DNA of 64,000 bases from Camillea tinctor (lineage: Eukaryota; Ascomycota; Sordariomycetes; Xylariales; Xylariaceae), in NCBI GenBank assembly GCA_022578605.1, contig MU394101.1, positions 245,410 to 309,409 on the forward strand, given 5' to 3'. Position 1 is the first letter of the stretch; every line of letters begins with the position of its first letter. Made by a program: the position numbers and the translations under genes. Positions 21,274 through 47,693 of this stretch are shown here, one piece after another. Under the pieces are notes generated by a model. That model was not told the origin of the DNA. It searched no databases and saw only the letters and a program-made list of their open reading frames with translations.

Positions 21274-23044
21274 TCATGAAGACTCCCAGCCGTCGGCTTC
21301 AATGCATTCCAAGCATCGAATCAACCTCTGAAGCCCTATATGTAAAGCCTCCTCCTCGACGGCGAAGCTGATGCGAAACCAACCCAGCTCTTCAGTGGAG
21401 AAGCTGCTTCCGAGGGAAATGCCGACGCCTGACGCGAGACAGCGCTTAAACAACTTCATTTCACGGTCCCGATATATATCGGTCTTGAAAGATGATAGTT
21501 TGTGTAATGAACAATTTGATGTCGCGGGTTGTACAGATTTACCATGAAGATAGCGGCGTAGATCGACCCACACGAAAACACCGGCATGGCTATATATATC
21601 TAGTTTAGCATTACTAATGTACGTATCTGCCTTGAAACAACTTACACGCTGTTGTAGTACGGAATTCCGTGTTGATCTAAAAAAGATCTCAAGATTGTGC
21701 AATGTTTCGTCAGCACTTCACGGTTTTTCGTTAGGAAGTCGACCCGGAATTGTTCGTCCTCGAGAATATTTGCCCACATGTCTTGGGTGATATAAGGCAC
21801 CCATCCAAAAACACTGCGAATATATACGTTATACTAGTCCCGTTACCATTACAAAAGTGCGACTTACCATATGCTAGACACCGCGGCTATGAGGCCTTCA
21901 TTCCTAGAGTGCAACGCTCCCAGTCGAAGCCCCGTGGCACTGAAATCCTTACCCATTCCATAGGCAACATGAACAAGATGGCGGTCAATGGAGTCATCGA
22001 GTTCCAATGCTAGGATTGACGTGAATGGTGCGAGGTCGGCAGCCTGTGAGTTGTGGTAGACTGACATCGCGAAGACCTCGTCACAAATCAGATGCAGATT
22101 ATTACGACCACAGAAACGGGCAATTTCCTTAAGCGACGCTGCGGGCTTGTATAGAGTCAGTATGTACAAATTATATCCAAGGTGAGTAGTAGCTCACGTA
22201 GCATCTTCCAAGAGGGTTATGGGGACTGTAGCACCGTGAGTTAGTCTGCGCTCGTGATCAAGCAACCTCAGAACTCAGGCCCCTCATACTTGGACAACAG
22301 TACCGCCCGCACCTTCACGCCACTCTGAGTAGCCTGCAGAAGTGCGTTCTCCAACGCCTTCCTGTTCATCTCGGGGGCAAAGACGTCATCCAGGCATCGG
22401 TACCCCTCAAGACACTGGAATGAAGCGGGTATGAGTACACCTCGCGCTCTTTCAGAAACGGCCGGTTTGAAGCCCGTGTAGAAAGGCATGGGAACAATGA
22501 TGCCTTCGCCGTCGTTGCAAATCGACCAAGCCAGGGAATCAATGACGGCCACCACTCTAGGCAAAACGATGATCTCTTTCTCCAACACAGGCTCACGTGC
22601 CCGGAATTCCGAATTGAAGAACGAGGCCATGGCCTTCTTGAGACGCGGTGACCCTCGTGGGCCTACTCCGTAGCCTAAATGATCATTCGGGATGACAGTT
22701 GACTGAGGTCCTTGTCAGAAATGGGGTACCTTAGCTCGCTCGCATATCCTTACGTTGTTCTTAATACGCGTCGCCACTTCTTGGTGCAGGAGAGTATTCT
22801 CGGCTACACCGAGAAACACTCTTTGGTTCGTCAACATAAAAGCCTCAGCGCACATGCTGAAGCTTGGGGACTATCATTGGCAAACTTACAAGCCGTCTGG
22901 ATTGTCAGCCGCCCAAATATTCGCCATCATCTTCTCAATCGCATCCCATGGTTGCTCTTGAACAGAATTATAGGCAGCTCTCTTGGATAGGCCATATTTT
23001 GAGCGGGCACTATCAGCCTGGTTATGTGAAACTGAAGTGGTCAT
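21274..23044 (-). CDS. PLP-dependent aminotransferase, ACC-synthase-like (class I/II)
   Basis: This fold-type I PLP enzyme probably deaminates an aromatic amino acid to the arylpyruvate used by the neighbouring A-T-TE synthetase. Seven exons (23044-22890, 22820-22754, 22702-22290, 22225-22198, 22145-21868, 21813-21646, 21589-21274) give about 474 aa; exon 4 is only 28 nt. Splicing restores LGVAENTLLHQE, LGYGVGPRGSPRLKKAM, LLSNPHNPLGRCY and CDEVFAMS. The Schiff-base lysine is in AYGMGKDFSATGLRLG (about residue 287), followed by VHAGVFVWVDL and SFSTEELGWFRISFA. The closest named family is ACC synthase-like, which also includes C-S lyases such as GliI, so lyase activity is an alternative. It lies 354 bp downstream of, and co-oriented with, the synthetase. 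Confidence 0.9.
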
Positions 23045-23398
23045 TTTTGGAGTTAAGATTACTGCAGGAGTTGCGTAGAGGGGATGTTATTTGAACAACG
23101 CGAAGCAGGCTGGGACAGATACCGGACCTTTATAGTTGGAATACCCGTATACGCCTAAAACAATATGGATTCATGCATAAACCTCACTTATACGGTACTA
23201 TTGCTTACCGGATACATTATATATACGTTTATCATATTATGTTGAACTCGTTACGGGAGCAGGGAATAGGGGCAAAATAAAAACATATTGGTTTTCAGAG
23301 ATTATATCATCTAGATACATGTAGCACGGAGGGCCAATATACCATTACACTCTAATTAATTCTTTTTTCTTTTTGTCAAAACAACCGATATATGTAAT
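23045..23398. other. Spacer between synthetase and aminotransferase genes
   Basis: This AT-rich spacer holds the synthetase 3' UTR and the aminotransferase promoter. Nothing else is recognised. Confidence 0.5.
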
Positions 23399-26341
23399 CT
23401 ATACTCCCCTAGCTTCCATTGCCTTTATTAGAATCTGCGCAAACCTCACAACGTGTTGAGGGCCGATCATGGTGTAATGCTCGCCTTGCACGGCATGGAA
23501 CCTGGGCGGTTCGCGTACGAAATCAGCCCAATGGCTTAAGTACTCATGTCGCCAGACCTCACGGGACTTCGCCACCGCTTTCAGTGGCACGGCATAGAAA
23601 ACGTCAATATTATCCACCTGGCCAGACGGGTCATAGTCGCTCGCCATGTGCTGGAGGCCAAACGCGACATCGACCCAGCGTTCCAGGGCATCCGACTCCA
23701 GCCCCAGCTCCTTCCAACGCGATTTATGCGCTATGTTCAAAACCCTTCTCACAGCCTCAGCGCGTGGCACCGCGCGGAAGGCCAGGTCAACCTCGAGCGT
23801 GTCTGACATGTCCTCGGTTATAAGCCCCAGAAAATGACTCAAATGTAGCAGACACACATTCCAATTCAGCAGGCGGATGCGTTGTTTGATGTGCGGCGGG
23901 AGGTTGAACGAGCCGAGGAAGCGCACCTCCTCACCGCCGGCTTCCAGCCTCTTCGCCGTCTCGAACGCCAGCATTGTGCCGTAGCTGTAGCCTGCTAGCG
24001 CGTAGGGCCCGCGCGGCTGGCGCCGGCGGATCGCCGCCGTATAGGTGTCGACAGTCTGCTGGATGCTATCGAAGCACGGTTGGTTGGGCTCGAAGCCGGC
24101 TGCGCGCAGCGCGAACACGGGCCGGTCGTCTGCGGCCAGGCATTGGGCTAGCCCGACGAAGACCAGAACCTCACCGACGCCGGGGTGGATCAGCCAGAGT
24201 GGCGTCTTGGAGCCCCTGGCGCGAAAGACAACGACGGGATCGTAGCTGTCAATGGATGCTTGCTGGTAGGTGTCCGCCTTGGAATGCTGCGGTTCGACAT
24301 CGAGTTCAGCGGCTAGCGCTCGGATGGTGGGGTTCTTCATGATTTGCATGACGGATAGGTTTATTACTAGACGCTTCTCGATATAGTACTTGAGCCTGAT
24401 GACATGCATTGATGTAAATCCGATGTCAAACAGAGACGTTTCAACGTGGATACTAAGGACCTCCGGAGTTAGACCCAGGGTCTCGGCGACATCTCCGAGT
24501 AGGTGGGCTTCAGTCTCAGTTATCTGCGTTGACTCGTCCTTGTACGATTGCTCTGCTGCGTTGGACGTGCGTAGTACCAACTGCTCGTGAAGCTCGAGGT
24601 CCACCGTAAATGCCCCCTCCTCAAACAAGCGCGCCATCTTGGGGCGCGATATTTTCCCCAGAGTAGACATTGGGATCAGCGGTAGCGACTCTTCTCGGAG
24701 GGCAAACACCAGTGGATGAGTTGCCGTGCGTAGCAGACATGCCTGCATCACCAGACAGGCAATATCAAGCATTTCCTCATCCCGCGCCGGGAAGACCTTA
24801 GGGATGTATGCAACCGTCACCTGCTCAGTATGTAAAGCCATAGAAGGGAAGACAACCAGTCGCGCGACGCGGTCACCTAACACATGCTCAATAGCCGTTT
24901 GGACGTCAGCGGCGATGATTTTAACGCCATTGATATTGATAATGTCTTTAGCACGCCCTACAAGACTAAGGTTACCATTTGAATCGATGATTGCCCGATC
25001 GCCGGTCCGAAACCAATGGTCAGGGGTAAAGGCGTCGCTTGTCGCGGCCTGATTGCGATAATAGCTCTTGAAAACAACCGGCCCACGAACTTCAAGGTCG
25101 CCGGGTTCGTCGGGCGCAGCGAGGCCCCCGGTATCTCCCGGAGTAGTAACACGCATTGCTATACCAGTCATACATTTCCCTACCGACGCCACTGTATGGC
25201 CACGAGAGATGTCGTACTCGGGGCAGTTGGTATTGAAAATAGCCCCGGCACACGTCTCCGTCATTCCGAAGCCAGGAACAATCACGTCGCGCGGAGCTCC
25301 ATACTTCGAGAGCAAGGCTGATGCTGCTAGATAGGTTTCCATATCATTTGCCTCGCCGCCAGATGCCACCAAGACCAGACCCGAAAGATCCCATACGGGG
25401 GTTATCCGAAGTGACTCGACAGCGGGGACAAGCTTCGCGAGAAAGAAGTTCGGGGCGAACGTGCGAGATACGCGGTGTCGGCTGAGCAAATCCAGGAAGG
25501 TCTCGGGAGACGGCACGACTTTGGCAGCACTCACATGGACCTGGTCGACGCCAAGCCATAGTGCCTGGAGATGGATTTCGATCAGGCTGGCGACGTGGTC
25601 CAGGCCGATCCAGTTCAGAAAAGGCTGGTCTTGGGGGAGAACGCGTATCGCAGACTTGCCGGAAATCGCGTTCAGGACTTGTTTATGTGTGAACGAGACA
25701 GCCTTAGCATTTCCCGTACTGCCGGATGTCAACATGAGCATTAGCAAGTCCTCATTTCCGCTACCGTTCATTTCGTTAGGTTTCATTCTGCGTGACGTAG
25801 GATCTCCATTCTGGATATTCTGTGGTTGGCTGTCCCCGGCTTTTTTGAAGGCACAAATGTCACCGTTCATCTTAGAACTCTTGGCATGACGAGATTCCCG
25901 TTTAGATTCATCGAGCAGACTTTCGGCTGGATATAGATAGACATCTAGGCTGTCGCCGAATAGTGGCAGAGATTTGGAGTTGGTGAAACAAATGGGCGAC
26001 TCCAAAAGTGCCGATAAGGCTCGAATATGCCTATGGCGATCATCCTCAATGTTGCTGAAGGGAGGTGACAGAATTGGTAGGCCACCTGCGAACAGAACGG
26101 ACCAGAACCATAGGATTACATCCCAATGGTCGTCAAAGTGTAGCAGCACAGGACGACTAGCCTCGAACCGTTTGAGAGATCGAATGGTACGACTGATTCG
26201 CTTTGCCTCCTTATACAAGTCAGTGTAACTGACTTTCATAGGGCTGCAGATATTGCCTAAAGAGTAGAATAGTAGATGTCCAGGGCTACCAGACTGTGCC
26301 CTCTCATTGAGAACCTCTTGAAGAGTTTGCCATTTAGCCAT
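23399..26341 (-). CDS. NRPS-like A-T-TE synthetase (arylpyruvate-dimerising type)
   Basis: A single exon encodes 980 aa. I chose ATG 26341 (MAKWQTLQEV) because the frame upstream opens only with GTG. The adenylation domain spans roughly residues 1-590: A3 LMLTSGSTGNAKAV (about 205), substrate-pocket region NWIGLDHVASLIEIH (about 243), A5 GFGMTETCAG (about 360), A7 WFRTGDR (about 445), GRAKDIININGVKI, and A10 Lys in STLGKISRPK (about 563). The carrier domain has Ser about 644 in GFTSMHVI. The thioesterase (about 715-980) has LIHPGVGEVLVF, nucleophile Ser about 786 in AGYSYGTMLAFE, and His about 955 in GEHYTMI. There is no condensation domain. Enzymes of this architecture (TdiA, AtrA, BtyA, MicA, PgnA) activate and dimerise aryl-alpha-keto acids. 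Which acid and which ring closure occur here cannot be read safely. It is the core enzyme of the cluster. Confidence 0.95.
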   Translation of the reverse strand: MAKWQTLQEVLNERAQSGSPGHLLFYSLGNICSPMKVSYTDLYKEAKRISRTIRSLKRFEASRPVLLHFDDHWDVILWFWSVLFAGGLPILSPPFSNIEDDRHRHIRALSALLESPICFTNSKSLPLFGDSLDVYLYPAESLLDESKRESRHAKSSKMNGDICAFKKAGDSQPQNIQNGDPTSRRMKPNEMNGSGNEDLLMLMLTSGSTGNAKAVSFTHKQVLNAISGKSAIRVLPQDQPFLNWIGLDHVASLIEIHLQALWLGVDQVHVSAAKVVPSPETFLDLLSRHRVSRTFAPNFFLAKLVPAVESLRITPVWDLSGLVLVASGGEANDMETYLAASALLSKYGAPRDVIVPGFGMTETCAGAIFNTNCPEYDISRGHTVASVGKCMTGIAMRVTTPGDTGGLAAPDEPGDLEVRGPVVFKSYYRNQAATSDAFTPDHWFRTGDRAIIDSNGNLSLVGRAKDIININGVKIIAADVQTAIEHVLGDRVARLVVFPSMALHTEQVTVAYIPKVFPARDEEMLDIACLVMQACLLRTATHPLVFALREESLPLIPMSTLGKISRPKMARLFEEGAFTVDLELHEQLVLRTSNAAEQSYKDESTQITETEAHLLGDVAETLGLTPEVLSIHVETSLFDIGFTSMHVIRLKYYIEKRLVINLSVMQIMKNPTIRALAAELDVEPQHSKADTYQQASIDSYDPVVVFRARGSKTPLWLIHPGVGEVLVFVGLAQCLAADDRPVFALRAAGFEPNQPCFDSIQQTVDTYTAAIRRRQPRGPYALAGYSYGTMLAFETAKRLEAGGEEVRFLGSFNLPPHIKQRIRLLNWNVCLLHLSHFLGLITEDMSDTLEVDLAFRAVPRAEAVRRVLNIAHKSRWKELGLESDALERWVDVAFGLQHMASDYDPSGQVDNIDVFYAVPLKAVAKSREVWRHEYLSHWADFVREPPRFHAVQGEHYTMIGPQHVVRFAQILIKAMEARGV

Positions 26342-27494: not shown

Positions 27495-28993
27495 ATGGCC
27501 TCCAAGGAGTCTCTATCGCGAATTGTACAACTTGCAAATACGATTGGCACCTCAGTGAGAAAAATAGAAGAAACCCTGTCTGCCAAAGGCATATCGTCGC
27601 CTAGATTTGACGAAGATGCCTCCTTCAACATCCCTCTCGAGCTCACTACTGACCATGACGCCGTGCTTGACGCTACTGCAGAGCTCCACGATCTGCTCCT
27701 AGAGCCTTTAAACCTGATCCATAGGCATGGTGGGGTAAGTACACTCGTCTGAGCCTTGAATCCGGTAGCTGATTGTTATGGTTTGCAAGCACAACAATTC
27801 GTTATGCCTGCAAGCTATTGCCGAATTCAAAATTGCGGATTTGGTCCCGGAGAATGGCCAAGCATCATTCGATGATATTGCCAGTCAAACTCCAATGACG
27901 AGTGAGATGATGGCTCGCCTTCTCCGACATGCAATGACTATGCGTATCTTTCGCGAGCCTGAGGCGGGGATGGTAGCGCACACTGCCGCTTCCAGGATAC
28001 TAGGCCGTTCGCCAGCCAATGACTGGTTACAAGCTGGTACAAAGTAAATGTGGCCGGCAGCTACCAAGGTCAGTAGGGCCTCATTTCTCTTAATCCCATC
28101 TCGTCCACGCTACTGATCGTCTCACGTGCTAGATGGTGGAGGCTCTTAAGAAGTGGCCAGAATCCCAGGAACCCAATGAGACGGTAAGGTCCCCGACTTC
28201 TTCGGGCAAGAATAAAGTCACTCAGTGCTCATACATAGGGTTACGCATTGTCGAACAACGGCTCGGAGACCATCTACGATATCTTTGCTAAAGATGCCGA
28301 GCGGGCTTCCCAATGGGCAAGAGGGATGCAGGTCTTCTCCCAGAGGCCCCAGTTCAGTCTGTCTTATGTCACTAACTATTATGACTGGGCCTCTTTGGGC
28401 CAAGCTCAAGTCGTCGATATTGGAGGTTCCCGAGGGCACATCTCCTTGGCTCTAGCGAGGCAGTTCGATAACCTCAGCTTGATCGTCCAAGACATGGAGA
28501 AAATGGTTGAGAATGCCACTGTTCCAGAAGAGTTACAAGAGAGGATGAGATTTATGGCTCACGATCTCTTCGCCCCGCAACCTGTTCAGGGGGCCGACGT
28601 CTACTTCTTGCGCTGGGTCCTGCACAACTGGTCCGATAAGTACTGCATCTTGATCTTGCGGGCCCTGGTCCCGGCGCTTAAGTGTGGAGCCAAGATTATA
28701 ATCCAGGAGACTCTTATGCCAGAGCCCGGCACAGTAGCGATGTGGAAGGAGAAGAATCTAAGGTCTGTGATAAATGATCCAGTGTTTTAATGAACATGTG
28801 CTGACAAGTAGGGTTCTACAGGGCGACTGATCTGAACATGGCTGCCGCTTTCAACTCCAAGGAGAGAACAGTGGTCGAGTTTAGATCTCTGCTTGAAAAG
28901 AGTGACCCAGGGTTTGTGCTCCAGCAAATTATCGAACCCGCGGGGTCGGCACTTGGGATGCTGGAATTCGTGTGGGAGAAGGTTACGAATTAG
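27495..28993 (+). pseudogene. O-methyltransferase OMT-1 with in-frame stop (COMT-like)
   Basis: This belongs to the fungal SAM-dependent O-methyltransferase family (PF00891 type with an N-terminal dimerisation domain). Five exons can be set (27495-27734, 27790-28068, 28133-28183, 28239-28762, 28822-28993; 422 codons), with the same introns as OMT-3. The frame is interrupted by TAA at 28045-28047, between GTK and MWPAATK, where OMT-3 has KDTWPATTR. No canonical splice choice I could find removes it and keeps frame. The rest looks functional: SAM motif VDIGGSRGHISLALA, VQDMEKMVE, and the catalytic-His motif LRWVLHNWSDKY. It is either a recent pseudogene, a sequencing error, or read-through. A truncated product of 165 aa would lack the catalytic domain. 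Confidence 0.85.
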
Positions 28994-29719: not shown

Positions 29720-31112
29720 CTAGATGCTAGGTGTCTTGGTCCGCGGCAAACGTACGTCCATAACACTCTCATAACTCAGACCGGAGTATATATACGTACG
29801 TACAAGCTCGAGACCCACGTCTTCGAACGTCTCACGCCACTGCGCCTCGGTACGCTCCATGCTGGCGAACGCCGAGAGCATAGTCATGTCGATGGACGCA
29901 GCAGTGTAGCTGACGCCAGCTTCCGGGAATACCATCTCATCTACAAGCAACACTGACTCGGGTCCCATAGCGGCCTTGACGTTCTCGAGCAGCCGCCGCA
30001 CCTTCGGCGGAGGGTGATTGTGTAGCACAGCACGCATATAGTAAAATTTTGCACCTGCGGGTGAGACAAATTAGGTTAGTGAGAGACGTCTTGAGGGGTA
30101 GGAGGAGGAGAAACCTCCTGGTACTCACCAAGAACGGGCTGTGGCTCGAATATATCGTGCGTCATCTTCTCGACTCCAGGTGTAGGGAGTGCCTGTGCCA
30201 CCGAGTGCGACAAGTCCTGCAGCACGACGCGACCCTGCAATGTGGGATATTTCTCCTTGAACTGCGCGCATTGGTGACCAATACTACCACCGATGTCGAC
30301 AAAGAGGCCTTTTTGGGCAGGCCAGTCGGCTACGGCCTCTGTAGCCACGGGGTATATAGATAGCCAGGTGGCATCGGGCTTCCGGCGCAAGGACATGTAG
30401 GCGTTGAAATGGGCCAAATGTGTAGGATTGTTGGCGAACCAAGCGTACGAGCCCATAGACGTATGGAATGCCGCCTGGAAAGCAGTGTTGGTCTCATCGA
30501 CTGGGTTATTATAGCCATTATCTTTCAAGTAGCTAGGGAGAGACTGGTACTGCGGTGCAGCAGTGCCAAAGCTTGAGATATGTTAGTGGAGGGACAGCAT
30601 AGTCACTGGGAGTAGACGTACTAGTGAGACAGACCGGCCTCGACTACGCTCTCCGTGAGGTTGCGAGTCACATGGTTAGCAGTATACTGATCTTTGTCGT
30701 TCTCGTTAACTGCGCCGATAGCAGCGAGGAATCTCAGAACGCGGGCTATTCTAAAGTTAAGTCTCAAATACAGACGATGGGGAGTACCAAAACTCACTCA
30801 TTAATTGAGGTTCTGCTCCTGTTTTCTGTGAGAGATGATGGACAGTTAGTGGCACAGCTGACTCGGCTAAGTGCCTAAACAATCTGAGATCGATGCCGAC
30901 TTGGACTATAGCAGCTTGGAGGTTCTAGATGCCAGTCAGCTCTTGTCTGATGCCAGAATGGAAGTGAACCAGACCATATGTCCATATCTATGGATGGTGT
31001 CATGAGGACTCTCTAGGGAGAATGCCAGGTTTTGGAGAGCTACCATCACCTTACGACGACTTTCTTCACTCTCCGCTGCTAGTGCTTTGACATGGTTCAG
31101 AGCTGCTTCCAT
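29720..31112 (-). CDS. SAM-dependent O-methyltransferase OMT-2
   Basis: Five exons (31112-30975, 30924-30798, 30745-30622, 30571-30129, 30054-29720) give about 388 aa. Order: N-terminal helix with LESPHDTIHRYG, dimerisation/winged-helix part (VQVGIDLRLFRHLAES, HHLSQKTGAEPQLMTRVLRF), then the Rossmann methyltransferase with SAM motif LFVDIGGSIGHQCAQF, LQDLSHSV, THDIFEPQPV, and the catalytic His motif MRAVLHNHPPPKV. The C-terminus ends VMDVRLPRTKTPSI. The intron pattern differs from OMT-1/OMT-3, so it belongs to a different OMT subgroup, closer to the relic at 38419. It is the only cluster methyltransferase here that is both unbroken and has the catalytic His. It probably methylates a phenolic or enolic hydroxyl of the synthetase product. 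Confidence 0.93.
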
Positions 31113-31854: not shown

Positions 31855-33498
31855 ATGTCCTGGATGCACCATCTTCTCTACTTGATCATAGCGAGCTTCG
31901 GCTTCATCTTTGTCCAGTTGCTCCGACTCAAATTCTCACCGAGGGGAGCAGTATGGGCTAAGCTGGACGCCGTTGGTGCTACACCTGGGGACTGTCTACC
32001 CTCGTTCGCCCGTGATGTCTTATCGTCTATCGTGTTGACACGAAAGTTCGCTAATGAGGGCTACCGCAAGTTCAACAAGGCATTGGACCGGCCGTATGCA
32101 CTACCCACGCCGTGGGTGCGCGGCAGCTCGGTGATGGTGCTGCCGCCGTCGCAAATACCGCTCCTTGCCCGTCTAGACAAGACAGGTGATAGCGAATGGA
32201 CCAACCTGCGTGGTTTAGTCGAAACCACTCAGCTGCCCTATATTATCGATGATGCTAATATCTACCAAAATGTGCTGCATTTTGATATTGTGCGTCAGAA
32301 GATGGCTCATAGAGACATGAGCCGCCTAGCGCCCGTGACGGCAGATGAGATCGACCATTCCTTCCGCGACATCTGGGGGACCGATGTCGAGTGGAGAACC
32401 ATCAATGGCTGGGAGGCCTGTGGCCGGATCATATCACGCGCCGCACAGCGCATCCTCATTGGGCTACCCCTGAGCCGCGATGAGACAATGCTGGAAACAT
32501 CACGGCACTACGCAAATTCCCTCCTGGTCGGTGGCGCCATCATAAACTGCTTCCCGCCGTCCATACGGTGGTTGGTGGCGCCGCTGATCGCCGTGCGTGC
32601 CCGGTACTTCCAAGCACGCTATGTCAAAATGCTCCTACCTCTGGTGCAAGAGCGCATCAGTCAATGGGAGGCAGGCAAAGACGGAGGCCCAGTACGTACA
32701 CTGACTCCCAAGCATTATCGTTCCTTTTCCGTAGTTAGTACTGATCACTCGTCTCTTTCCGTCGTGCTTTAGGATGACTTTCTGCAATGGATGATCGCAA
32801 TATGTGCTCGGGACCCTGAGCAGCTCAACGCCACCCGCATTGCGCTGCGCTTGGCTAGCCTGCTCACGCCTCTGATATTCGCCATCTGCTATGTGTTCGC
32901 GCACTGCGTGCTCGGCATTCACGGCAGCGCGGACCGTGCAGACATCCTCGCGGGCCTTGAGGAGGAATGCGCGCGCGTCTCCGCTCAGCATGGCGGTCTC
33001 GCTACCAGCGCTTCTACCGACGCCCTACGCCGCGTAGACTCTGTCTTGCGCGAGTCGATGCGCGTGTCAGACGTGTCGGTCACTAACATATTCCGCGACG
33101 TCGTGGCCGGGGAGGTGGACGTAGGCCACGGGTTGCGCGTGGGGCCCGGCGTGCGCATGGTGTTTCCCACGCAGGACATACACTTGGACCCGGACAACTA
33201 CGTAGACCCGGAGCGGTTCGACGCGTTCCGCTTCTCCCGGTCCTTTGAGAATGGTGATCGCAGAGGAGGGGAACAGGAGTTCATTACGACAGCGACACCG
33301 TCATTTATGCCCTTCGGCTACGGGAGGCACGTGTGTCCCGGCAGATGGTTCGCGGCACAATCGATGAAGCAGACCCTGGCCTATCTTGTGCTCAACTATG
33401 ACGTCGAGCTGGTAGGGCCGCCAAGCAAGAGGAAGGCTCTGCTAAACATGATGGTGCCTCCTGTAGACACACAAATCAGAATACGGCAAAAGGTGTGA
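31855..33498 (+). CDS. Cytochrome P450 monooxygenase P450-1
   Basis: Exons 31855-32691 and 32773-33498 give about 520 aa. I chose ATG 31855 (MSWMHHLLYL) because the upstream frame opens with TTG. An N-terminal membrane anchor lies near residues 5-25. The ExxR motif is LRESMRVSD, the PERF-like motif is DPERFDAFRF, and the haem loop is PFGYGRHVCPGRWFA with the Cys ligand near residue 460. The I-helix region (CYVFAHCVLGIHGSADRADI) lacks the usual AGxxT or IHTT signature and looks about ten residues short before the J helix, unlike most family members. It shares a promoter region with OMT-2, suggesting joint regulation and oxidation of the cluster scaffold. The specific reaction is unknown. Confidence 0.92.
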
Positions 33499-33713: not shown

Positions 33714-34372
33714 CTAATGATAAGTCCGTTTCACCGCCTCCTTCTCGCGCTCCAGAAACTCCTTGAAGGACGTCAATGGCGTAATAGACCTGAGCTCGTC
33801 CATGTTGACGTAGTCTGATGCGGTGCGCAGCACTTTATGTGAGTTTGAGAAACCGCTCATGTTAGCCTGGGCCTCGATTTCCTCATCCGTCATAAAAATG
33901 GCTCGAATCGAGCCTGGCTGGCCCGCCGCTTCGGCAAGCAGGTCCAGCATGTCTTGGATGCCCATCTGTTCGCTCGCCAGCCCGATAGCGCGGCCGTGAA
34001 ATGCTCCGGGATCCTGGAACGCGGCCACAGCAAATTTGGCGATGTCGACATGGTCGATGATGGGTAGCTGGGTATCAGGCGTCATGGACGTAGTCCAGCT
34101 GCGCTTGTCGCGGACTTCAGCGTAGCGACTCACCTTGGGCTCGAGGAAGTTGGCCATGTAAAAGGTCGGCCGCAGAAAGGTGAAGTGCTCGAACCCGCGG
34201 TCTTCGACCGCTGTCTCGAGCGACTTCTTGTTGATCATATGCTTTTCCATGAAAGACCCAGGATAGACTCTCACGTTTACATCGAGCTGCGAGACGCCGA
34301 GCGTGGTAGAGGCCACAACCTCCTTCACGCCCGCCTCCTTGGCGATATCCAGGATAGTTTGACACTGGCAAT
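33714..34372 (-). pseudogene. NmrA-like NAD(P)-binding protein, 5'-truncated
   Basis: The C-terminal two thirds of an NmrA/HSCARG-like atypical short-chain dehydrogenase are present: DIAKEAGVKEVVASTTLG, FLRPTFYMANFLEP, LPIIDHVDIAKFAVAAFQDP, and a normal-looking C-terminus. The N-terminal Rossmann glycine motif (GATGxxG) is absent, because upstream sequence turns abruptly into the 5' half of a Pth11-like gene. A splice-acceptor-like CCATTGCCAG sits at the edge, so the NmrA part probably began at an exon boundary. Such proteins sense or use NADP(H). Without the nucleotide-binding start it is probably non-functional unless expressed as a fusion. Confidence 0.8.
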
Positions 34373-34379
34373 GGTGAGC

Positions 34380-34919
34380 TAGTCAATATCAAAATGATGC
34401 TGAATACTACATGGAGTGTAGTGAGTACTATCAGGAACCATTTCAACCACTTCTTTGTTCCAAATATGCGAATGAGGAGTATCGCTATCGAAATCCGAGC
34501 TGTGATGGATGACAGGAGACCGGGCGTAAATGACATCCATACCCATTTAGAGATCTTGACGAGCTGGTTGAAAGTAAGGTCTCCGTCGTGTTTACCGAAG
34601 CCCCAGTGGTAAGCCACAGTGAGGCATGATTGACAGGCGAGGTTAAGTATCTATGGAGTGTATATATCAGGATCCCGCGAAAAAAAAAAAAAAAGTCTTT
34701 TTTGATGAGATGCCATACCACAGCAGTCAACATGAGCCAGTCCTCCACGCTCACTAGCTTAGTCACTGCGATGCGGACCCAAAACCGAACGGCGACGATG
34801 ATCACGCATAGACTCGAGAATGTCCACGTCAAGCCCATGATCAAAGGTCCGCGGCCACGATCACTCGGATTGACGGGAGGTGGGAGCATAGGCATCCCAG
34901 TTGATTGAGAATCAGCCAT
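34380..34919 (-). pseudogene. Pth11-like membrane protein, 3'-truncated
   Basis: Exon 1 (34919-34719) and exon 2 (34650 to about 34385) encode the N-terminal TM helices of a Pth11-type protein (fungal rhodopsin-like domain). It is a clear paralogue of the intact gene at 46414: shared blocks are PPVNPSDRGRGPLIMGLTWT, VEDWLMLTA and RISIAILLIRIFGTKKWLKW. Similarity stops after VVFSIILI, where the paralogue continues for another 190 residues. Intron 1 carries an A/T homopolymer (about 34679-34694). The break joins NmrA-like sequence on the same strand. The encoded product lacks the last TM helices and the tail. Confidence 0.8.
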
Positions 34920-35474: not shown

Positions 35475-35507
<33 letters not shown>

Positions 35508-35695: not shown

Positions 35696-37235
35696 TCACG
35701 CTGCAGTGCCGGGCACGTTCCAGTGAACCTCTATGATCCCCAACAAATTATCCTTGGGCTCATACACCCGATGAAGAACGAATCTCTCATCTGCCGCTGC
35801 GAGTAGAGCTTTCCATTCATCCAGATATCTTTCGCGGCCATTGAAGAAGCATTTCACACTCAAATCCACCGCCCTATTAAGTTTTCGTTAGTAGGCATAT
35901 TTTTTAGTCATGGCACATATCATCACTTAGTATCATACCTTGCAGTTCGCTCTTTCCATAATGGGATAGTATTTGGTTCCGGCATGCACACATCCTGAAT
36001 GAGGATCTTTGCTCCAGGTTGCAGAGCCGGAACCTGCGCTTTCAAGATTTGAACAGCGTATTTGTCACCCCAATTACGGAGGACCATGCGAAGGTAATAG
36101 ACATCTGCCTTTACCGTCTGTGGTTCGAAAGTCTCATGTTTCATGAATTCAATACGGCCTTTCAACTGGTCGGGAACCTCTGATTCTGCGCCTTCAATAA
36201 TCATCCCCATGTCTTGGACAAGTAGCTTGAGATTCCCGAAGTTCTTTGCCAGTTCTATGGCGGCTTGACCTCTAGCACCGCCAACATTGACGATGAACGC
36301 GTTTCCTAGGGAAGCCCAATCGTAGACCTTGGGAATAGCTTCGATTGGGAGACCGGGAATATGGTCTGTGACTTTCATGGCAGATGCGAAGCGCATGGCC
36401 CGCTCGGGGTCTGTGCCGAGGACCTCGTAGACCGACTTGTCGGTGTTGTTGGCAAGAGTGAAGCCCTGTGAAGATCAGCACGAGCTACAGGAAATATGGT
36501 CAGCTCTAGGACATGGGAAACACTCACAGTCTGGTTGGGCTCTTCGGACGATGGCCATTTCTGCATGGCGTCGACAACCTACGATAAAGTACCCACATTA
36601 GCTCGTTCTGTCGCTTCCCTCTGATGCAAAGGAATCTTGCACACTTACCCTGGTAGTGGCTGGCCAGGTATCCTTACACTCAAAATTGACCCAGTTGTTG
36701 ACATACGGAACGGCTAAGAATTTGGAGGCCTTGGTATGGGCCACCATGCCAGGCTCCGGTTCTCTCAGGATACGCATAGCCATAGCGTGTCTGAGTAAGC
36801 GTCTAACATGCTGCTTGTCCAAGCCTGTTTTTTCAGCGATATCTTCAAAGGAGATCTGGCCACCAGAAGGTATGACATCGGCAACATGGTATCGGCATAT
36901 TGTGTCGATGCTGACCAGGTTGGAGATCTGGAAGCGTTAATCCATGAAAGAAAAGGGGGGGGGGGAAGGGGCAGCTGATCCCGAGGAACTCTTACAGATG
37001 CAAATTTGAAGATCAGTGATAGGGGGTCTAGAAGCAGTTCATGTAGTTCAGCAGTTGCATCAAGGACGGCATCCTGGAGATGAGACACATCAGCAGGTAG
37101 AGTTTGAGGATTGTCCTCAGCAAAGGATGGAGATGCCACCCCCTGAGCTGATAATCGCTCTTGAAGTTGGGCGACAGAAGTGCTGATCTGAGCAGCTAGT
37201 TCGACGATTCTGGGAGTGGTATTGGATGAAGACAT
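35696..37235 (-). CDS. O-methyltransferase-like protein OMT-3, catalytic His replaced
   Basis: Five exons (37235-36996, 36927-36649, 36578-36528, 36465-35939, 35873-35696) give about 424 aa with no stop. The first three exons have the same lengths as in OMT-1 (240, 279 and 51 nt), showing a shared origin by duplication. N-terminal dimerisation and winged-helix parts are intact (QISFEDIAEKTGL, VRRLLRHAMAMRILREPE). Two key positions deviate: SAM motif I reads VNVGGARGQ (OMT-1 VDIGGSRGH), and the catalytic-base motif reads LRMVLRNWGDKY where OMT-1 has LRWVLHNWSDKY. The His-to-Arg change removes the residue that acts as general base in COMT-type enzymes. It may be inactive, a structural partner for another OMT, or catalyse a different reaction. 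Confidence 0.92.
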
Positions 37236-38418: not shown

Positions 38419-38793
38419 ATGCCCAAGATGAGCCTCAACACTACCCAATAAGAAGCACTGGCAGACCAGATCGAATCAATTCTGGGTGACCCCAAAGGTG
38501 CCTCTGAACATATCACAGATGACAGAATCCGCCGTCGCTTAGTTGAGGGCGGGTGTAAGCTCGCTGCTTCTTTAGAAAGTCCTAGAGACACATTGCGCAG
38601 AGCTGGTAGCTCGGTATGTAGGACTATAGCTTTGTGTGATACTCCATGGCTAACTTTAGCCATCACTAGCATCTCCAACTACCTCTGGCTCTTATCGGTG
38701 TGGAAACCGGCCTATTTTCCACTTTGGCGGCCGAGCCTCGCTCTTTCAACAGTGCAGAGCTCTCAGAGAAGACTGGCGTGAACACTAACCTAA
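38419..38793 (+). pseudogene. O-methyltransferase relic (first two exons only)
   Basis: Two exons of an OMT N-terminus remain: 38419-38613 and 38670-38793, with intact splice sites (GTATGT...CACTAG). The encoded blocks match OMT-2 in order and intron placement: KLAASLESPRDTLRRAG corresponds to LAFSLESPHDTIHRYG, and LIGVETGLFSTLAAEP then ELSEKTGVNTNL corresponds to VGIDLRLFRHLAES then HLSQKTGAEPQL. A TAA stop at 38449-38451 interrupts exon 1. After the second donor-like site (A/GTGAGC) no methyltransferase domain follows. It is a truncated, dead copy related to OMT-2. Confidence 0.75.
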
Positions 38794-40273: not shown

Positions 40274-42101
40274 TCAGGCGATGAATGAAGCTACATGTGC
40301 TATCAGATTGGCTGCAGCCTTCGTCCCAATGATGAACTGGTCACTCTCCATTTCAAAGTCTGCGGCCGCGATGCCCTCAAATTTGAAGTCGAAGCGCTGG
40401 ACGAGGGTAGCAATAACGAGATACATCTCAGCCCATGCAAGACTAAATAGACAGGATGAGTCAGACATGAATAGTTTGGGAATGTAAACGAAACCGAAAA
40501 TGAAATGAAGAAGAAAATTGACATACTGCATGCCCAAACATATTCGTGTCCCTTTCGAGAATGGTGCATAGACCTTATCCAACCTCTTCTTTGCTTCCAA
40601 GTCCATCCACCTATCAGGGTTGAAACGCATAGGCTCAGGATATAACTTCTCATCAGTATGCATCAGAATAGTCGTCATCCCCACTGGTGTCCCGGCTGGA
40701 ATGCGCAAATCGCCGTAAAAGAGGTCCCTGTCGGGGGCGATGCGGGCCATGCGCGTTCCGATGGCTGGACTAAGCCGCATACCTTCCATGATCACCGATG
40801 TCAAGTATGGTAGTTTTTCCAACACCTTAACTTCGACTTCACCATCACTAAATGACGGCACTCCATCCGCTGCAGCGAGCTCAGCGCGCAAGCGCTTCAG
40901 GATTGTAGCATTGCTAAAGACATGGTAGAAGATAAGTCGCAGCACACTGGCCGTCGTCTCAAATCCAGCTCCCGTTATCGTCGCCACATCGTTCATGACA
41001 CGCAGGAATTTCTTCTCAGCCGCCGGAAGATTAGAGTTAAAGAGTTCATGAACGATAGTACGGGGCACCTCCTCGCCGGTAGATGATGTGGTAGCGATTC
41101 GGAGGAGATCCCTAGTGTCATCTTCACTGTTCTATCATGGACGGATGGTCAGTAATCAAAATGCACCCGACTAGCTATTGGGGGTAATTTTTTCTTGCCT
41201 GGATATGTTGAAAAAATTCTTTAGTACTCTCATCAGCCACTTTGAACAGCAGACTGCGCGGAATAGATTTCATGGTTGGGCCGAACCACGGGAAATGCTT
41301 AGTTATACGCCAAATGACACCCCCTTTCTGGAGCATGTTCGTCACGGCAACGTTAAAGTCGTCCTTATCCAGGGCCCCAGACGTCTTATTGAGCATGAAT
41401 TCACACGACACATCCCGTACAATAGCGCTGATAGCGGCTCCCAAGTTAACAGTGTTCCCCGCCAACTGGGAAAGTCTATTACAGAGCTTCGCGACGTTGC
41501 GGTGGATGATTTCTTGGCGAGCTGCTACCTTGGCCTTAGAGAAAAAGTGATTGATAGGCTGACGACGGGCCTTATGAAGCTCGTGTGAGCCGGTTCTACA
41601 CCCATGTCAGTATAAGAAATAAATACCCCGAAAGCAAAAACAGGACAAAAAGAAAGACGGACACGATGGTAGCACCTTTGGCGGAGAAGCCATTATAAGT
41701 CCACTCATACTTGTCCCAACAGCCTTCTTGGCGGTAGAGCTTTTCGAAATAGGTAGGGTCGATTACGTGAAGTTCGTAAGGGCTGATTCGAATGATGGGT
41801 CCTGGAAAGGGGTAAGGAGCTAGTCAGAGGGGAACTCGGACAGATGGAGTGAGAATGATGTTCAAAATCTACCATATTTCTTATGCAACTCAGCGATCTT
41901 AAAGGTATATTGGCCATTTTGAACAATGTCGTAGTAGGCTTCATACCAGCGAGTAATAGCAGCTAATCTAGGGCCTGGAAACCTAGCAAGAGGGTGCAGA
42001 AAAAGACGGTAGAAAGCGAGTGATGCAAAATAAACAGCAAACAAAACAGCAAAGTTCTGCCAGGACAGCAACCCTTCACGCATCTTGGGAAGGACGCCCA
42101 T
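40274..42101 (-). CDS. Cytochrome P450 monooxygenase P450-2
   Basis: Five exons (42101-41873, 41801-41663, 41595-41199, 41131-40527, 40442-40274) give about 512 aa. There is an N-terminal membrane anchor ([19 protein letters not shown]), Pro-rich hinge [21 protein letters not shown]-helix [11 protein letters not shown], ExxR in [14 protein letters not shown], and haem loop [16 protein letters not shown] with the Cys ligand. All catalytic motifs are intact. Its style resembles the trichodiene-oxygenase (TRI4)-like group, a loose resemblance only. Intron 3 appears to use a GC donor (CAG/GCAAGA...ATAG), since no GT is available near the exon end and the join [13 protein letters not shown] is in frame. 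Intron 2 has a weak GTCCGT donor. It is divergent from the MFS gene, with a 661-bp shared promoter. Confidence 0.93.
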
Positions 42102-42762
42102 GATTACAATTGTGATGGGTATTACGGGTATTACTGCTATTGTGGGATCAAGACAAAAGGTAGGTAATCACTAAGAAGGATGAAATAATTTTTGTAGAGC
42201 GCAAAAGCTCGGGCGCTGTATAAATAGTTGCATTTGAGCAACACTACGTACCTTCCCCTACCAGATACTTAGGACTTGGGTTGAGTAAGTAAGCAAGGCA
42301 GAATGCTTGGGTGGGGAGGTCTGAGAGGGAGGGAAATGATATATCAAGTTTCCAACAGATATGTCGGCTACCAACGTTTACGTTCACTGCATCGATTGGT
42401 TACAATAACATATTCCTGTCTGTTTCATTTCCAGTATAGGTCAGTCTGTACTACCAACCTTCAAAACTTGCATATTGCTGACCTGCTGGGCCATCCCTGG
42501 CAGCCCTGGCATTAGTCCTATACGCATACACCCCCTCCCTTTCTCCAAAAGCCACCAACACCACGATAGTATATAGCCTCATTTAATTACTTGAATGCAG
42601 ATAATGTCACTCCATCTTTGTGTAACAGCTACCTTACAAATCATGCATGGTCGACTTTGAATAAGTTGAGCATAAAGACCAACGAGCCCTTTTTCCTCTG
42701 CTGGCTCACAACTCGACTCTTACTTGTATTTTCTTTTCCCTTGCGCCCAGCCTACATCCGCC
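42102..42762. promoter_or_regulatory. Shared divergent promoter region, P450-2 / MFS exporter
   Basis: A 661-bp spacer separates the divergent start codons. A TATAAATAG lies at 42219-42229 on the plus strand. No cluster-specific operator can be named. Confidence 0.5.
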
Positions 42763-44975
42763 ATGACAACCGCCCAATCCTCACCTGGAAATGTTCCCAC
42801 CGCCGACGCTGGCGAAAAGCCAGATGCTAACACCAGTCCCTCCGTCTCGAAGCCGGAACCGGAGTCGAAGCTAGATGTCGACATAGACAAGCCCGATCCC
42901 AGTGCCGGATACTTGACTGGTGTTAAGCTCGTCATCATTGTAGCGGCCGTCACCTTTTCTAGCTTCCTCATGCTGCTGGATACTATGATTGTCAGCACTG
43001 TACGCCGCTCTCCCTCACTAATAATGGACATTCCCAAGCTGGGTCAAGGCTGATCGTGATATCTAGGCCATACCGGAAATCACCAGCGCCTTCCATTCTC
43101 TTCCAGACGTTGGGTGGTACGCCAGCGCATATCAGTTCGGCCTGTAAGTATTATTTTTGCATCTACAAATCTACTTACACCTGCGATGTTAGTTGCATTT
43201 GCCTAACCTTGCCAAATTTCTAAGTGCCGCACCACAACCGCTCATAGGGAAGCTTTACAAGTTTTTCAACACAAAGGTTCGTATCGCTTATATGTCCTCT
43301 ATGTTCGACTCACTAGCCTAATTCTAGTAGTGGACCTTTATAGTCTTCTTTGCCGTGTTTGAGATCGGCTCTGTCCTTTGTGGTGCTGCTATCTCATCTC
43401 CCATGTTCATCGTCGGTCGCTTCGTTGCTGGCTTAGGGGCTGCCGGCATCAGCAACGGCTCTCTCAATATCATCTCTAACAGTGCGCCTTTGGAAAAGCG
43501 ACCCGGTGAGTGAAACCATCTTCCATGTGTGGCTAGTGATAATGCTCATATAGCTGGCTACTTAGCTTTGATCGGGTTGGCTTTGGCTTGTAAGTCTACT
43601 ATTAATCTGCGACCTATTCTCGGTAGCCCGGGCTAATTCAGAACCAATAGTCAACCTCCTCGGACTTGTCGTGGGGCCTCTTGTTGGCGGGGCGTTCACA
43701 TCTTACACTACGTGGCGTTGGTGTATGTTTTCTCTCATTCCTCAACTACTCACACTTGACTTACAGAACCAGGTTTTTATGTGAATCTACCAGCTGGTGG
43801 TTTAGCAGTGATCGCCATCCTTTTCCTGAGCATTCCGGAAGAGGCAAACAAACCTAAGGCTTGGTCCCTGATCCCGAGATTACATTATCATCTTGATCTC
43901 ATAGGCTTCATCCTCTTTGCTCCGGCAGTCCTACAGCTCCTCCTCGCTCTTCAGTTTGGTGGTGTGACCTATCCCTGGAACTCGTCCCAAGTGATAGGTC
44001 TTTTCTGTGGTACTGTTGCAACCAGTGTCGCCTGGTGGTTCTGGAACCGGCACCGTGGTGACAATGCCATGATGCCCCACGCACTGATCCGCCGGGGGGA
44101 CGTCCTCGCTTCGGGCATGTACATCTCGCTTCTCATGTCGGCGGTCTACGGAGCAACTTACTTTCTCCCAATTTATTTTCAATCCGTCAAGGGAGCAAAT
44201 CCGATGTTAAGCGCTGTGTATATTCTTCCAATGATCCTAGCACAACTCATGACAGCTGGTGCTTCCGGCGCTGCAGGTGAGTTTGGACAGTCATACATTG
44301 ATCTATAACTCACTACGAATACTGACATCTGAGCTTTAGTAACCAAGATCGGTTATGTAATTCCAGTAGCTATCTTTTCAACCATCTTTCTCTCCATCGG
44401 CAGTGGCCTTTACTCTATCCTTCAACCTAACAGCTCAACCGGTCAATGGATTGGTTTCCAAATCCTTGGAGGGGTCGGTTCTGGTGCTGGTCTGCAATTA
44501 GTTTGTTCCCTCTTTGCAATCCAGGGCACATGCCTTGATTTCCCATGTCGTATACTAATCTAGATCCTTCTAGCCTTTAATTTCTGTCCAAGCCGCCATG
44601 GATGGCGAAGAGCTCGCGGCTGGCATCTCCTTTGTCATATTTAGTCAGGCCCTTGGCCCGACCATTACGCTAACCCTCTTCAACGTCATATTCAGCGCGG
44701 GTCTGCAGACAGAGATCAACCAGCACGCGCCACAAGTCGATGCTGCGGCCATCATACATGCCGGTGCCACCGGCTTCCGCTCCATGGTTTCCCCGGAAGA
44801 CCTACCCGGCGTACTAGTCGCATATGCAAATAGTATTGACCACGTCTTCTACCTAGTTGCGGCACTATCGGCAGTATGTGGGATATGTCTATGGGGGATG
44901 GGTTGGCACGACATACGAAAGAAGGAAGGAGAGAACGTAACAAATGCAACAGATGGGGTCAAAACTGACAGCTAG
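42763..44975 (+). CDS. MFS drug:H+ antiporter, DHA14-like (metabolite efflux)
   Basis: Nine exons (42763-42999, 43067-43143, 43225-43276, 43331-43505, 43554-43589, 43651-43722, 43773-44276, 44340-44500, 44574-44975) give about 571 aa, the usual length for 14-TM exporters. A hydrophilic Pro/Glu-rich N-terminus of about 50 residues precedes [20 protein letters not shown]. Restored family blocks include [50 protein letters not shown] and [14 protein letters not shown]. Transporters of this group commonly export toxic metabolites or self-products and often sit in biosynthetic clusters. Here it probably exports the cluster product or gives self-protection. Introns are very short and one exon is 36 nt, so automated models may err. 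Confidence 0.94.
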
Positions 44976-46413
44976 TCATTACAGCAAGGACGGAAGCCGG
45001 TTGAAGGTGATGTTTTTGATATTACTCGAATACTATTAGTAATTATGGAGGATTAATTTTACGGGAAAAGATAAACAATCATGGCTAATATAGAGGCTGA
45101 TTCTTTTAATATTCATCATCTAGACAAACTCTCATTGCATTAGAACATACCTAGGTACTATCTATTTCTTTTGTGTCGATACGATCGACACAATGTTATG
45201 CCCCAGCCAACTTGGGCGGAGAATCGCCGGAAGCGCATTAACTGTTACTTCAACATGTAGTTATCCCATTTAGAATAGACTTATATTCTTTATTAGATAT
45301 TACCAACATCATTGGTGAGAACTGTAATACTTGTGATATTGGCGATATGAAATGTGTATATATAATATCAACTTTCCTGCCGTAATATCTCGTTCTTTAG
45401 CTACCGATCTAAGGTATTATTCATATTTTGGAATTAATAAAGTGAAGGTATACAAATCCTTCTATCGAGCGTTATTCTGAATCAATCTGGCATCACAGTT
45501 ATCTTTAAAGTCAAGACAACCCAATACGAGCCCTTTATTGCGTCTGCTCGTCACACACAAGTATTCATTTATTTTATACGAACCGCTAGCAGTGGAAACC
45601 CATGCTAATGCCATAAGTATGGTGGTATGCTTAGTTACCATAGTGTCTTAGTCGGAGATACCTTATTAGAATATCTCTGTTCATCTTTATATAGATCTGC
45701 ACTTTCTCTCATAGCTTTTGAAACTCAATATTATAGGCCTCTAGCATGTCAGCACATATTTTATTCACGGTTAATACATAGATCAACCTTCTTATTTCGA
45801 TATTGATATTATGCTATAACCTATGTACATAGGTACTGATCAATTAGTGTTGGCAGTCACCTCCGGTGTTAGACATGGCGCTCGTAGCAGGGATCATGGT
45901 GAAGAGAAGTGCACTCAATACTATTTAACAGATTCCACATATGTAGGCTGGACAATAGTCGATGTAGACGACCGGCAGCAGGTTGGGGGCTGTCACATCG
46001 AAATGAAGAGCATAAGTGGTAAGCTGAGTCTCTTATCCGACACCCGCCGGTGTAAGCCCGGATACAAAACGCAGCATCAATATCAGCAGCCTCATACGTT
46101 ATAATCCCAGTCCTTTGTTGACTAGGAAAGGCAAATATTCACCGTCCCAGTACGACGTTACTTGGATCGGTCTACTTCTGTCCCCCCGGATCGCCCGCAA
46201 GCGTTGCATACATCCTCTTCTCCATTCCTAAACTAGGTGCTTTTTTTATCCCAAGAGCAAGTCTGAAAGTGGGGCCAGTTGCCTCGAAGTTATAGGAAAA
46301 GAAGGTTTCTTGGACCAATCCCCAGTAGAGACGCTTTGCCTAAGAACCTTCGCCATTTCCTATTCTTCTATTTTCCAATTAGACACTTCTAATACCAAAT
46401 CTTTTCTTTGAGT
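44976..46413. other. Intergenic, AT-rich, no gene
   Basis: This region lies between the MFS exporter and the Pth11-like gene. Short frames have no recognisable family. No repeat was matched elsewhere in the window. Confidence 0.5.
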
Positions 46414-47693
46414 ATGGAGTCTATCCCGCCCGTAAACCCCGACGATCTGGGCCGTGGGCCAATGGTCATGGGGATCACTTGGACATTCACTATTCTCTCA
46501 ATAGTAGTAGTTGGATTGCGATTTTACGTGCGGCTAAAGATCTTCAAATTTTACTCCATCGAGGACTGGTTAATGCTTGCGGCTCTTGTGAGTAAATCCA
46601 CTTATAAGGCATATTTTCTTAGCATCATGGTACTTATATAACATAGTTCTAATGAATCTGGGCTACTATAGGTATTCCTAGTTGTCAGTCAAGGATGTGT
46701 GAGCGTAGCGTACCATTATGGTATTGGAAAGTATGACGCGGATATCGAGCAACCGACTCAGATGGTCAATGTACTCAAATGGATCTGGTTATCAGTGGCT
46801 CCTGGTATGGTCGTCTCTATTTTGGCAAGAATATCCATTGCCATGCTCCTCGTTCAGCTATTTGGAGTCCACAAATGGTTCAAATGGTTCATAATCATTA
46901 TCACCGTCGTCCAGACAGTCCTTTGCGTCCTAATTATTCCTTTCACGTATAGTCAAGTCAGACCCACAGAAGCGCTCTGGAATATATATCTACTAAATGT
47001 GGAAAGATGGGATCATAGAGTTGTGCTTTATATGGAGTACATTGGTCAATGTAAGTCTTCTTCGTCGTTCCCATACATTCAAATGGGTAGCCATTTTCTC
47101 ATTATAAATTGATTTCTAACAAACATACAAAAGCTCTATATACGATTTCGGATATCACCTACGTCTTATTTCCTGTCATTATCATCTGGAGACTCAATAT
47201 GCCAACACGGCGTAAGGTCGGTCTCGTTCTCCTCTTGGCAGGATCTCTCTTTACTGCAGCGATATCAATTTTGAAAACCACTGTCGCCCAGGGCGGCGGT
47301 GCCCACTACATCACCGATGTACAGTACGAGGGTAGTTTGGCTATCATTTGGTCAACCTTGGAGGAAGCTTTAGTCATCATCATGGGTTCCATTCCAGCTC
47401 TACGCGCTATCACAAAATTGAATATTTCGGTCTCCAGCACCATCGGTTCTTTCCTTTCCAGCGTATCCAAGAAGATCAAAAATCCAGCCTACAGTACTGG
47501 AAATATCAATTCTGGAGCATACCATGACCTGGAGAGGGGCACCTACAATCTTGGTCAGGTTGGGACGAACCACAATCTGGTAGCTGATGTCCCAATCATT
47601 ACTCATAACCAGTATCACAATAGTCATGGGAGCAGCCAAAATATCCCTAGACATGTCTTAAGAACTGATGAATTCAGTATCTCATACGATTAG
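46414..47693 (+). CDS. Pth11-like 7-TM integral membrane protein (fungal rhodopsin-like domain)
   Basis: Three exons (46414-46587, 46672-47050, 47134-47693) give about 370 aa. I chose ATG 46414 (MESIPPVNPDD) because the frame upstream opens with TTG. Features are the N-terminal GRGPMVMGITWTF, seven predicted membrane helices, IEDWLMLAAL after TM2, MLLVQLFGVHKWFKWF, LYTISDITYVLFPVIIIWRL, and a polar C-terminal tail of about 90 residues rich in Asn, Ser and His. Proteins of this family are putative G-protein-coupled receptors. No CFEM domain is present. A 3'-truncated paralogue lies at 34380-34919. A role in sensing for the cluster is only a guess. Confidence 0.9.

Follow-up and report, generated by a model that had tools for sequence, protein, structure and literature searches.

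The DNA considered here, hereafter the window, is a stretch of 64,000 nucleotides from the ascomycete Camillea tinctor (order Xylariales according to NCBI; assembly GCA_022578605.1, contig MU394101.1, positions 245,410 to 309,409 of the forward strand), and the subject of this report is a candidate biosynthetic gene cluster that occupies 21.3 to 47.7 kb of it. Gene modelling and a Pfam scan of the window place all of its parts in this interval (table 1): an adenylation-thiolation-thioesterase (A-T-TE) synthetase, an adjoining pyridoxal phosphate (PLP)-dependent enzyme resembling 1-aminocyclopropane-1-carboxylate (ACC) synthases, three O-methyltransferase (OMT) genes, two cytochromes P450 (P450a and P450b) and a major facilitator superfamily (MFS) transporter. 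This inventory is the one that an original prediction had drawn from the letters alone, and the P450 and MFS genes around the core are borne out by both gene models and Pfam; the stop codon of OMT1, the active-site residues of OMT3, a rhodopsin/NmrA chimera, a second rhodopsin gene and an OMT2-type remnant had gone unnoticed in it. The database records of C. tinctor for the synthetase (homologue-list entry P0001), the PLP enzyme (P0241) and OMT3 (P0121) belong to one contig of 309,409 bases. As set out below, the cluster is best read as a new version of the terphenyl/furanone type, with an enzyme of OMT fold among its members that is probably not a methylating one.

Table 1. Features of the cluster, in positions of the window.
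Feature	Position	Strand	Model and evidence
ACC-synthase-like PLP enzyme	21274..23044	-	7 exons, 474 aa, intact; PF00155 Aminotran_1_2 1.6e-45
A-T-TE (non-reducing nonribosomal peptide synthetase-like, NRPS-like) synthetase	23399..26341	-	single exon, 980 aa, intact; Pfam
OMT1	27495..28993	+	5 exons, 421 codons; in-frame stop at codon 166
OMT2	29720..31112	-	5 exons, 388 aa, intact; Pfam
P450a	31855..33498	+	2 exons, 520 aa; Pfam
NmrA-like NAD(P)-binding protein without its N-terminal part	33717..34382	-	profile positions 88-237 of 298 matched
Fungal-rhodopsin (PF20684) gene, 3'-truncated	34378..34919	-	directly downstream of OMT3, same strand
OMT3	35696..37235	-	5 exons, 424 aa, open frame; Pfam
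OMT2-type N-terminus remnant	38521..38792	+	tblastn in window, E 1.8e-4, 43% and 33%
P450b	40274..42101	-	5 exons in model, one GC-AG intron, 512 aa; Pfam
MFS transporter	42763..44975	+	8 exons in model, 562 aa; Pfam
Second fungal-rhodopsin (PF20684) gene	46414..47690	+	model without firm last intron; Pfam

The synthetase has the domain order of arylpyruvate-dimerising synthetases, with Pfam matches to AMP-binding (1.6e-34), PP-binding (9e-10) and Thioesterase (1.5e-26) and, as had been predicted, no condensation domain. Its homologues at E<=1e-30 number 1450, and the counts given here concern the best 120 of them (likewise the best 120 of 208 for OMT3 and the best 120 of 133 for the PLP enzyme); the nearest is 76% identical, and none of the 120 bears the name of a characterised A-T-TE enzyme. 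The active sites are intact, the serines of the thiolation (T) and thioesterase (TE) domains being found in 120/120 sequences and the TE histidine in 119/120, the window enzyme included. The nearest solved adenylation domain is that of the McyG loading module (E 2.6e-63). In a FastTree phylogeny of the 120 proteins, rooted at the midpoint, a branch with support 100 sets apart 42 rows, the enzyme among them, so that by its position in the tree it is a member of an uncharacterised clade of 42; entry P0010 of the list is, we presume, the A-T-TE enzyme of Leptosphaeria maculans. NCBIfam returned nothing above its curated cut-offs for P0001 or for the PLP homologue P0242.

The specificity code of the adenylation domain, whose positions were set by motif from GrsA numbering and checked on the McyG alignment, reads VAINVSFAGK, with valine at positions 1 and 5. 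Valine at position 1 is the mark of enzymes that activate alpha-keto acids (PMC10316625), and the C. tinctor enzyme thus falls with these and not with enzymes for amino acids. Polyporic acid synthetases, which use phenylpyruvate, have Val or Ile at position 5, and atromentin synthetases, which use 4-hydroxyphenylpyruvate, have Asn (PMC10316625). Val or Ile is found there in 37/42 members of the clade versus 16/78 sequences outside it, where Leu predominates, and Asn in none of the 120. From the valine at position 5 together with the published rule, the core is predicted to be a phenylpyruvate dimer, phenylpyruvate being a more likely substrate than 4-hydroxyphenylpyruvate. Hence, the assignment to the arylpyruvate-dimer class made in the original prediction stands, on the basis of the alpha-keto-acid-type code and the linked PLP enzyme, and can be narrowed; the adenylation residues, which it had proposed to compare with those of characterised enzymes, agree at positions 1 and 5 with the rule derived for them, by which they were judged. 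As for the fate of the dimer, the accessible parts of PMC10316625, PMC9603100 and PMC9047271 hold no TE residue rule that would part quinone from furanone makers.

For the PLP enzyme, every solved relative with an E-value of 1e-20 or better is an ACC synthase (six sequences), the best being those of plants. The fold is that of ACC-synthase-like class I enzymes (PF00155), and the PLP-binding lysine is present, GMGKD being aligned with SLSKD of ACS7. The gene model agrees with P0241 at 100% identity across the 376 aa that this record covers; P0242, with 77% identity over 99% of the model, backs the additional N-terminal part. Among the listed homologues, 17 contigs, that of the window included, carry both an A-T-TE and a PLP homologue, as judged from equal printed contig sizes and not from maps. 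The A-T-TE sequences so linked are concentrated in the 42-row clade, which holds 15/18 of them (15/42 versus 3/78 outside; Fisher p 7e-6). Stronger evidence of linkage comes from the neighbouring locus tags of the two genes in three other fungi, namely Plenodomus lingam (IAQ61_004987/004988), Lasiodiplodia mahajangana (O1611_g3605/g3606, on a 16-kb contig) and Cytospora chrysosperma (VSDG_09605/09606). By these comparisons, the PLP enzyme, which adjoins the synthetase, is a genetically linked part of the cluster; it is the probable source of the aryl alpha-keto acid, which we infer that it makes by transamination of phenylalanine. Seven contigs, again including that of the window, carry listed homologues of A-T-TE, PLP enzyme and OMT, and in 6/7 of these the OMT has arginine in the place of the catalytic histidine (Arg type, see below).

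The original prediction had counted three OMT loci. Three genes with Methyltransf_2 and Dimerisation domains are indeed present, but three methylations are not to be expected. OMT1 has canonical His/Asp motifs, and the stop at residue 166 of 421 precedes its SAM (S-adenosylmethionine)-binding domain. An intron that would conceal the stop was rejected, as no enumerated GT-AG intron keeps the frame while removing it; OMT1 is thus probably not functional, unless the stop is an assembly error. The nearest relatives of OMT1 in the tree, P0240 from Glarea lozoyensis and P0224 from Monosporascus, both share contigs with A-T-TE genes, and in Monosporascus the two tags are consecutive (DL768_003927/DL768_003928). 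OMT2 is intact and, albeit very divergent from the other OMTs, has His and Asp at the aligned columns. It is tied to the same neighbourhood by a gene model of Xylaria multiplex, in which the PLP enzyme is fused to an OMT2 orthologue (52% identity over 384 aa). With OMT1 interrupted and OMT3 devoid of the catalytic histidine, the presence of three active methyltransferases was rejected, and OMT2 looks like the sole OMT here that is both intact and canonical. A possible second OMT2-type remnant, by itself not significant (E 8.2), lies at 48454-48519.

OMT3, whose model matches P0121, annotated in C. tinctor as sterigmatocystin 8-O-methyltransferase, at 100% identity from end to end, has the two Pfam domains of canonical SAM-dependent O-methyltransferases and lacks two of their residues: Arg320 occupies the column of the catalytic His (LHxW motif) and Asn250 that of the motif-I Asp (VDxGG). 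At the catalytic column, the 120 listed homologues divide into 55 with Arg, 51 with His and 14 with Gln. With OMT1 and OMT2 added, the homologues make 122 sequences, 118 of which entered a maximum-likelihood tree (four outside 370-660 aa were dropped, and long ones were cut to 440 aa). In it, 52/54 Arg rows form one clade with support 100, the other two having arisen separately, and 12/12 Gln rows form a clade of their own, also with support 100, both clades being nested among the His rows. The arginine of OMT3 is, therefore, no accident. At the second position, the motif-I Asp is kept in 51/51 His-type sequences and is Asn in 80% of the Arg type and His in 93% of the Gln type, while the Asp after strand beta-2 is retained in 53/53 Arg-type rows. 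NCBIfam has no family for the OMT proteins P0121, P0224 and P0163.

The Gln-type clade, sister-like to the Arg type, appears as a third, non-canonical state with His at the motif-I Asp; its members are P0141, P0159-P0161, P0165, P0184, P0189, P0192, P0193, P0195, P0196, P0204, P0220 and P0229.

The best solved relatives of OMT3 are PdxI (7bqj/7bqk, E 2e-38), HpiI (1.5e-33) and LepI (1.1e-27), all of them pericyclases. The known OMT-like pericyclases act in pyridone or other polyketide pathways and are not known from A-T-TE clusters. PdxI, the protein of entry 7BQK, is SAM-independent (PMC10477347). In LepI, Arg295 replaces the methyltransferase His, so that deprotonation is impossible, and an Arg at this column is essential in both LepI and FinI (PMC10491745); the R295A variant of LepI is strongly impaired (PMC6533283). 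OMT3, which shares with LepI and FinI the OMT fold and the arginine at the catalytic column, has Arg320 aligned with Arg295 of LepI. By its residues, OMT3 is more likely to work as a non-methylating enzyme of OMT fold than as a methyltransferase. Sequence comparison does not establish it as a member of the LepI family: the other catalytic residues of LepI are not present in it, and its Arg arose inside the His-type clade of a tree that holds no LepI.

The rhodopsin gene that follows OMT3 has a counterpart elsewhere. In gene models of Paraphaeosphaeria sporulosa and Ophiobolus disseminans, an Arg-type OMT runs into a rhodopsin domain, which implies that in these two fungi, too, the OMT is succeeded by a rhodopsin gene of like orientation; the truncated rhodopsin of C. 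tinctor is 67% identical to that of Paraphaeosphaeria (the rhodopsin part of P0163), the second rhodopsin of the window 48%. In C. tinctor the gene ends in a chimeric junction (34919-33717, minus strand), the 3'-truncated rhodopsin breaking off at 34378, where the 5'-truncated NmrA-like gene starts. It follows from this fusion, as from the stop in OMT1, that the C. tinctor cluster, as it reads in the assembly, is a partly decayed copy, and at most one canonical methylation within the cluster is expected. As to the oxidative enzymes, the helix-I, ExxR and Cys motifs of P450b are all canonical. Among solved structures, P450a comes closest to CYP7A1, a CYP8B-type 12-alpha-hydroxylase and prostacyclin synthase; its helix I, read by eye, has no obvious acid/threonine pair, and it may not be an ordinary monooxygenase.

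Taken together, these features allow a pathway to be proposed. The PLP enzyme would supply phenylpyruvate from phenylalanine; the synthetase would adenylate it and hold it on the T domain, and the TE domain would couple two units to a benzoquinone or furanone core, these two steps being established for the class and assumed for the present enzyme. OMT3 would then, without methylating, catalyse a rearrangement, cyclisation or dehydration of the core or of an oxidised form of it in the manner of LepI, P450b and perhaps the unusual P450a would oxidise it, OMT2 would contribute one methyl group and the MFS transporter would export the product. A probability of about 50% is given to the reading that the locus is a member of a cluster family spread over several ascomycete orders, whose enzymes build a dimer of phenylpyruvate and go on to modify it, here with the participation of a non-methylating OMT3. 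Its more specific extension is tentative and somewhat less probable, namely that the Arg-type family, present in several orders, no longer transfers methyl groups and acquired its LepI-like catalytic arginine independently, and that OMT3 closes a ring in, or rearranges, the phenylpyruvate dimer from the A-T-TE enzyme.

Several observations weigh against this reading. The true methyltransferases GedA and DnrK match OMT3 at about 1e-25, slightly below LepI; PdxI and HpiI, the two best solved matches, have His at the Arg column; and in a pairwise alignment read by eye, His133 and Arg197 of LepI are replaced by Phe and Lys in OMT3. Furthermore, Arg-type OMTs share a contig with a listed A-T-TE in 7/55 cases versus 12/51 for the His type, and with a listed A-T-TE or PLP homologue in 9/55 versus 12/51; a special association of the Arg type with A-T-TE, considered at first, was dropped, since its contig sharing is no higher than that of the His type. 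The 46/55 Arg-type rows with no contig in common with a listed A-T-TE or PLP homologue may reflect the restriction of the lists to the best 120 homologues or a wider role of the family; the Arg-type OMT and the A-T-TE listed for Hypoxylon sp. FL1284 lie on different contigs. Where contigs are megabase-sized, sharing one is in any case weak evidence. Finally, code position 5 contributes to specificity without being a strict determinant (PMC10316625), and the decayed C. tinctor copy may make nothing.

The last point leads to the alternative that in C. tinctor the parts are real but the locus is silent and in decay, and nothing is made from it. The stop in OMT1, the truncated rhodopsin and NmrA genes, the OMT2-type remnant, a direct repeat pair around the block of P450b, MFS and rhodopsin genes and an AT-rich block resembling the product of repeat-induced point mutation (RIP) 12 kb further on all fit such a fate. 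Yet the frames are open in the synthetase, the PLP enzyme, OMT2, OMT3, both P450s and the transporter, and a composite RIP signal is found inside the cluster only in two 2-kb bins, one at 38-40 kb, which contains no intact gene, and one at 20-22 kb; silence is held to be rather unlikely.

It is unlikely, too, that the locus is an ordinary terphenyl cluster of ric type, in which the synthetase yields a terphenylquinone, the OMTs methylate its hydroxyls, the P450s hydroxylate it and OMT3 is a methyltransferase that employs another base or none. The same inventory is found in ric-like clusters of Hypoxylaceae (PMC8403587), OMTs are also present in the corticin and allantofuranone clusters, and OMT3 retains the overall OMT fold and the Asp after beta-2 that marks 53/53 of its type. 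Against a methylating OMT3 stand the loss of both the His and the motif-I Asp, which are present in all 51 of the His type, and against a full set of methylations the stop codon of OMT1.

An acid other than phenylpyruvate, be it 4-hydroxyphenylpyruvate or indolepyruvate, is an improbable substrate of the synthetase: the latitude of position 5 mentioned above and the reliance on a published rule leave some room for it, which the Val found there, and the lack of Asn in any of the 120 homologues, narrow. Plant-type OMTs act as dimers. It is still more doubtful that OMT3 and the other Arg-type proteins have no catalytic role and pair through the Dimerisation domain, which OMT3 has, with a canonical OMT1-type protein to steer or stabilise it, as the Arg-type P0133 and the OMT1-type P0240 on an A-T-TE contig of Glarea lozoyensis might suggest, for in C. 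tinctor OMT1 is broken while OMT3 is intact, and the retention of Arg across a whole clade, with Gln fixed in its sister, exceeds a simple loss of constraint.

The class of cluster is already known in Xylariales through the ric-like clusters of Hypoxylaceae, which span 10-45 kb and, around an A-T-TE core, have OMTs in several copies, in some of them P450s, four at most, and in two an aminotransferase (PMC8403587), much as in C. tinctor. The ric cluster itself, compared by inventory only, differs: it lacks an aminotransferase and has an oxidoreductase besides two OMTs, and 4-hydroxyphenylpyruvate is the proposed precursor of its product. The allantofuranone (alf) cluster shares a phenylpyruvate-using synthetase (AlfA) and an OMT with the present one; in gene content it differs by a 3-deoxy-D-arabino-heptulosonate 7-phosphate (DAHP) synthase, a ring-cleavage dioxygenase, a dehydrogenase and a Zn transcription factor, and its gene table contains no PLP, P450 or rhodopsin gene (PMC12105029). 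Among the corticin genes, three OMTs lie beside a polyporic acid synthetase (PMC9603100). The A-T-TE of L. maculans is related to SNOG_03620 (73%), which is 33% identical to TdiA and MicA (PMC4205913). The terrequinone (tdi) cluster combines, like that of C. tinctor, an A-T-TE enzyme with a PLP aminotransferase (TdiA and TdiD), but uses indolepyruvate and a prenyltransferase.

Searches of open-access literature, which leaves out most subscription papers, gave no report of a cluster with the C. tinctor inventory, nor of a non-methylating OMT-like enzyme or pericyclase in an A-T-TE (NRPS-like) cluster. The lack of a match to a known cluster, on which the original prediction had based its expectation of a new product, thus holds both in this literature and among the best homologues of the synthetase. 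What is new here is an A-T-TE cluster family, probably phenylpyruvate-derived, that combines a linked PLP enzyme with a conserved protein of OMT fold and non-canonical residues.

A-T-TE clusters abound in fungi, but few have been followed beyond the core enzyme, which is usually all that is studied (PMC8403587). Should the Arg-type protein prove to be non-methylating, the annotation as sterigmatocystin 8-O-methyltransferase would mispredict the chemistry here and in dozens of relatives, and a single residue would become a marker for finding new pericyclase-like enzymes. The family would also offer an independent second case of the passage from methyltransferase to cyclase, with His-, Gln- and Arg-type relatives side by side, and the Gln-type sister clade would represent a third functional state. 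To our knowledge, OMT3, if it does act in this way on the phenylpyruvate dimer, would be the first ring-forming or rearranging enzyme of OMT fold in A-T-TE pathways.

The surroundings of the cluster show some further features. A translation of the whole window in six frames, without splicing, shows no Zn2Cys6 or C2H2 transcription-factor pattern, though an intron could hide one; this agrees with the earlier statement that no pathway-specific regulator was found in the cluster. The direct repeat, about 175 bases long and made up of three pieces (39975-40148/48175-48345; 81-84% identical, spacing 8.2 kb), flanks the block from P450b to the second rhodopsin gene and is a possible recombination or insertion boundary. 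Long coiled-coil-like open reading frames on the plus strand (50934-56212) give weak coiled-coil matches in Pfam and no confident family, and 59006-59446 matches the C-terminal part of a CorA-like Mg transporter (E 2e-6). The AT-rich block occupies 60240-64000, the last 3.8 kb of the window, about 12 kb past the last cluster gene, with a GC content of 10-13% and a RIP-like dinucleotide bias (composite index 0.72-0.77).

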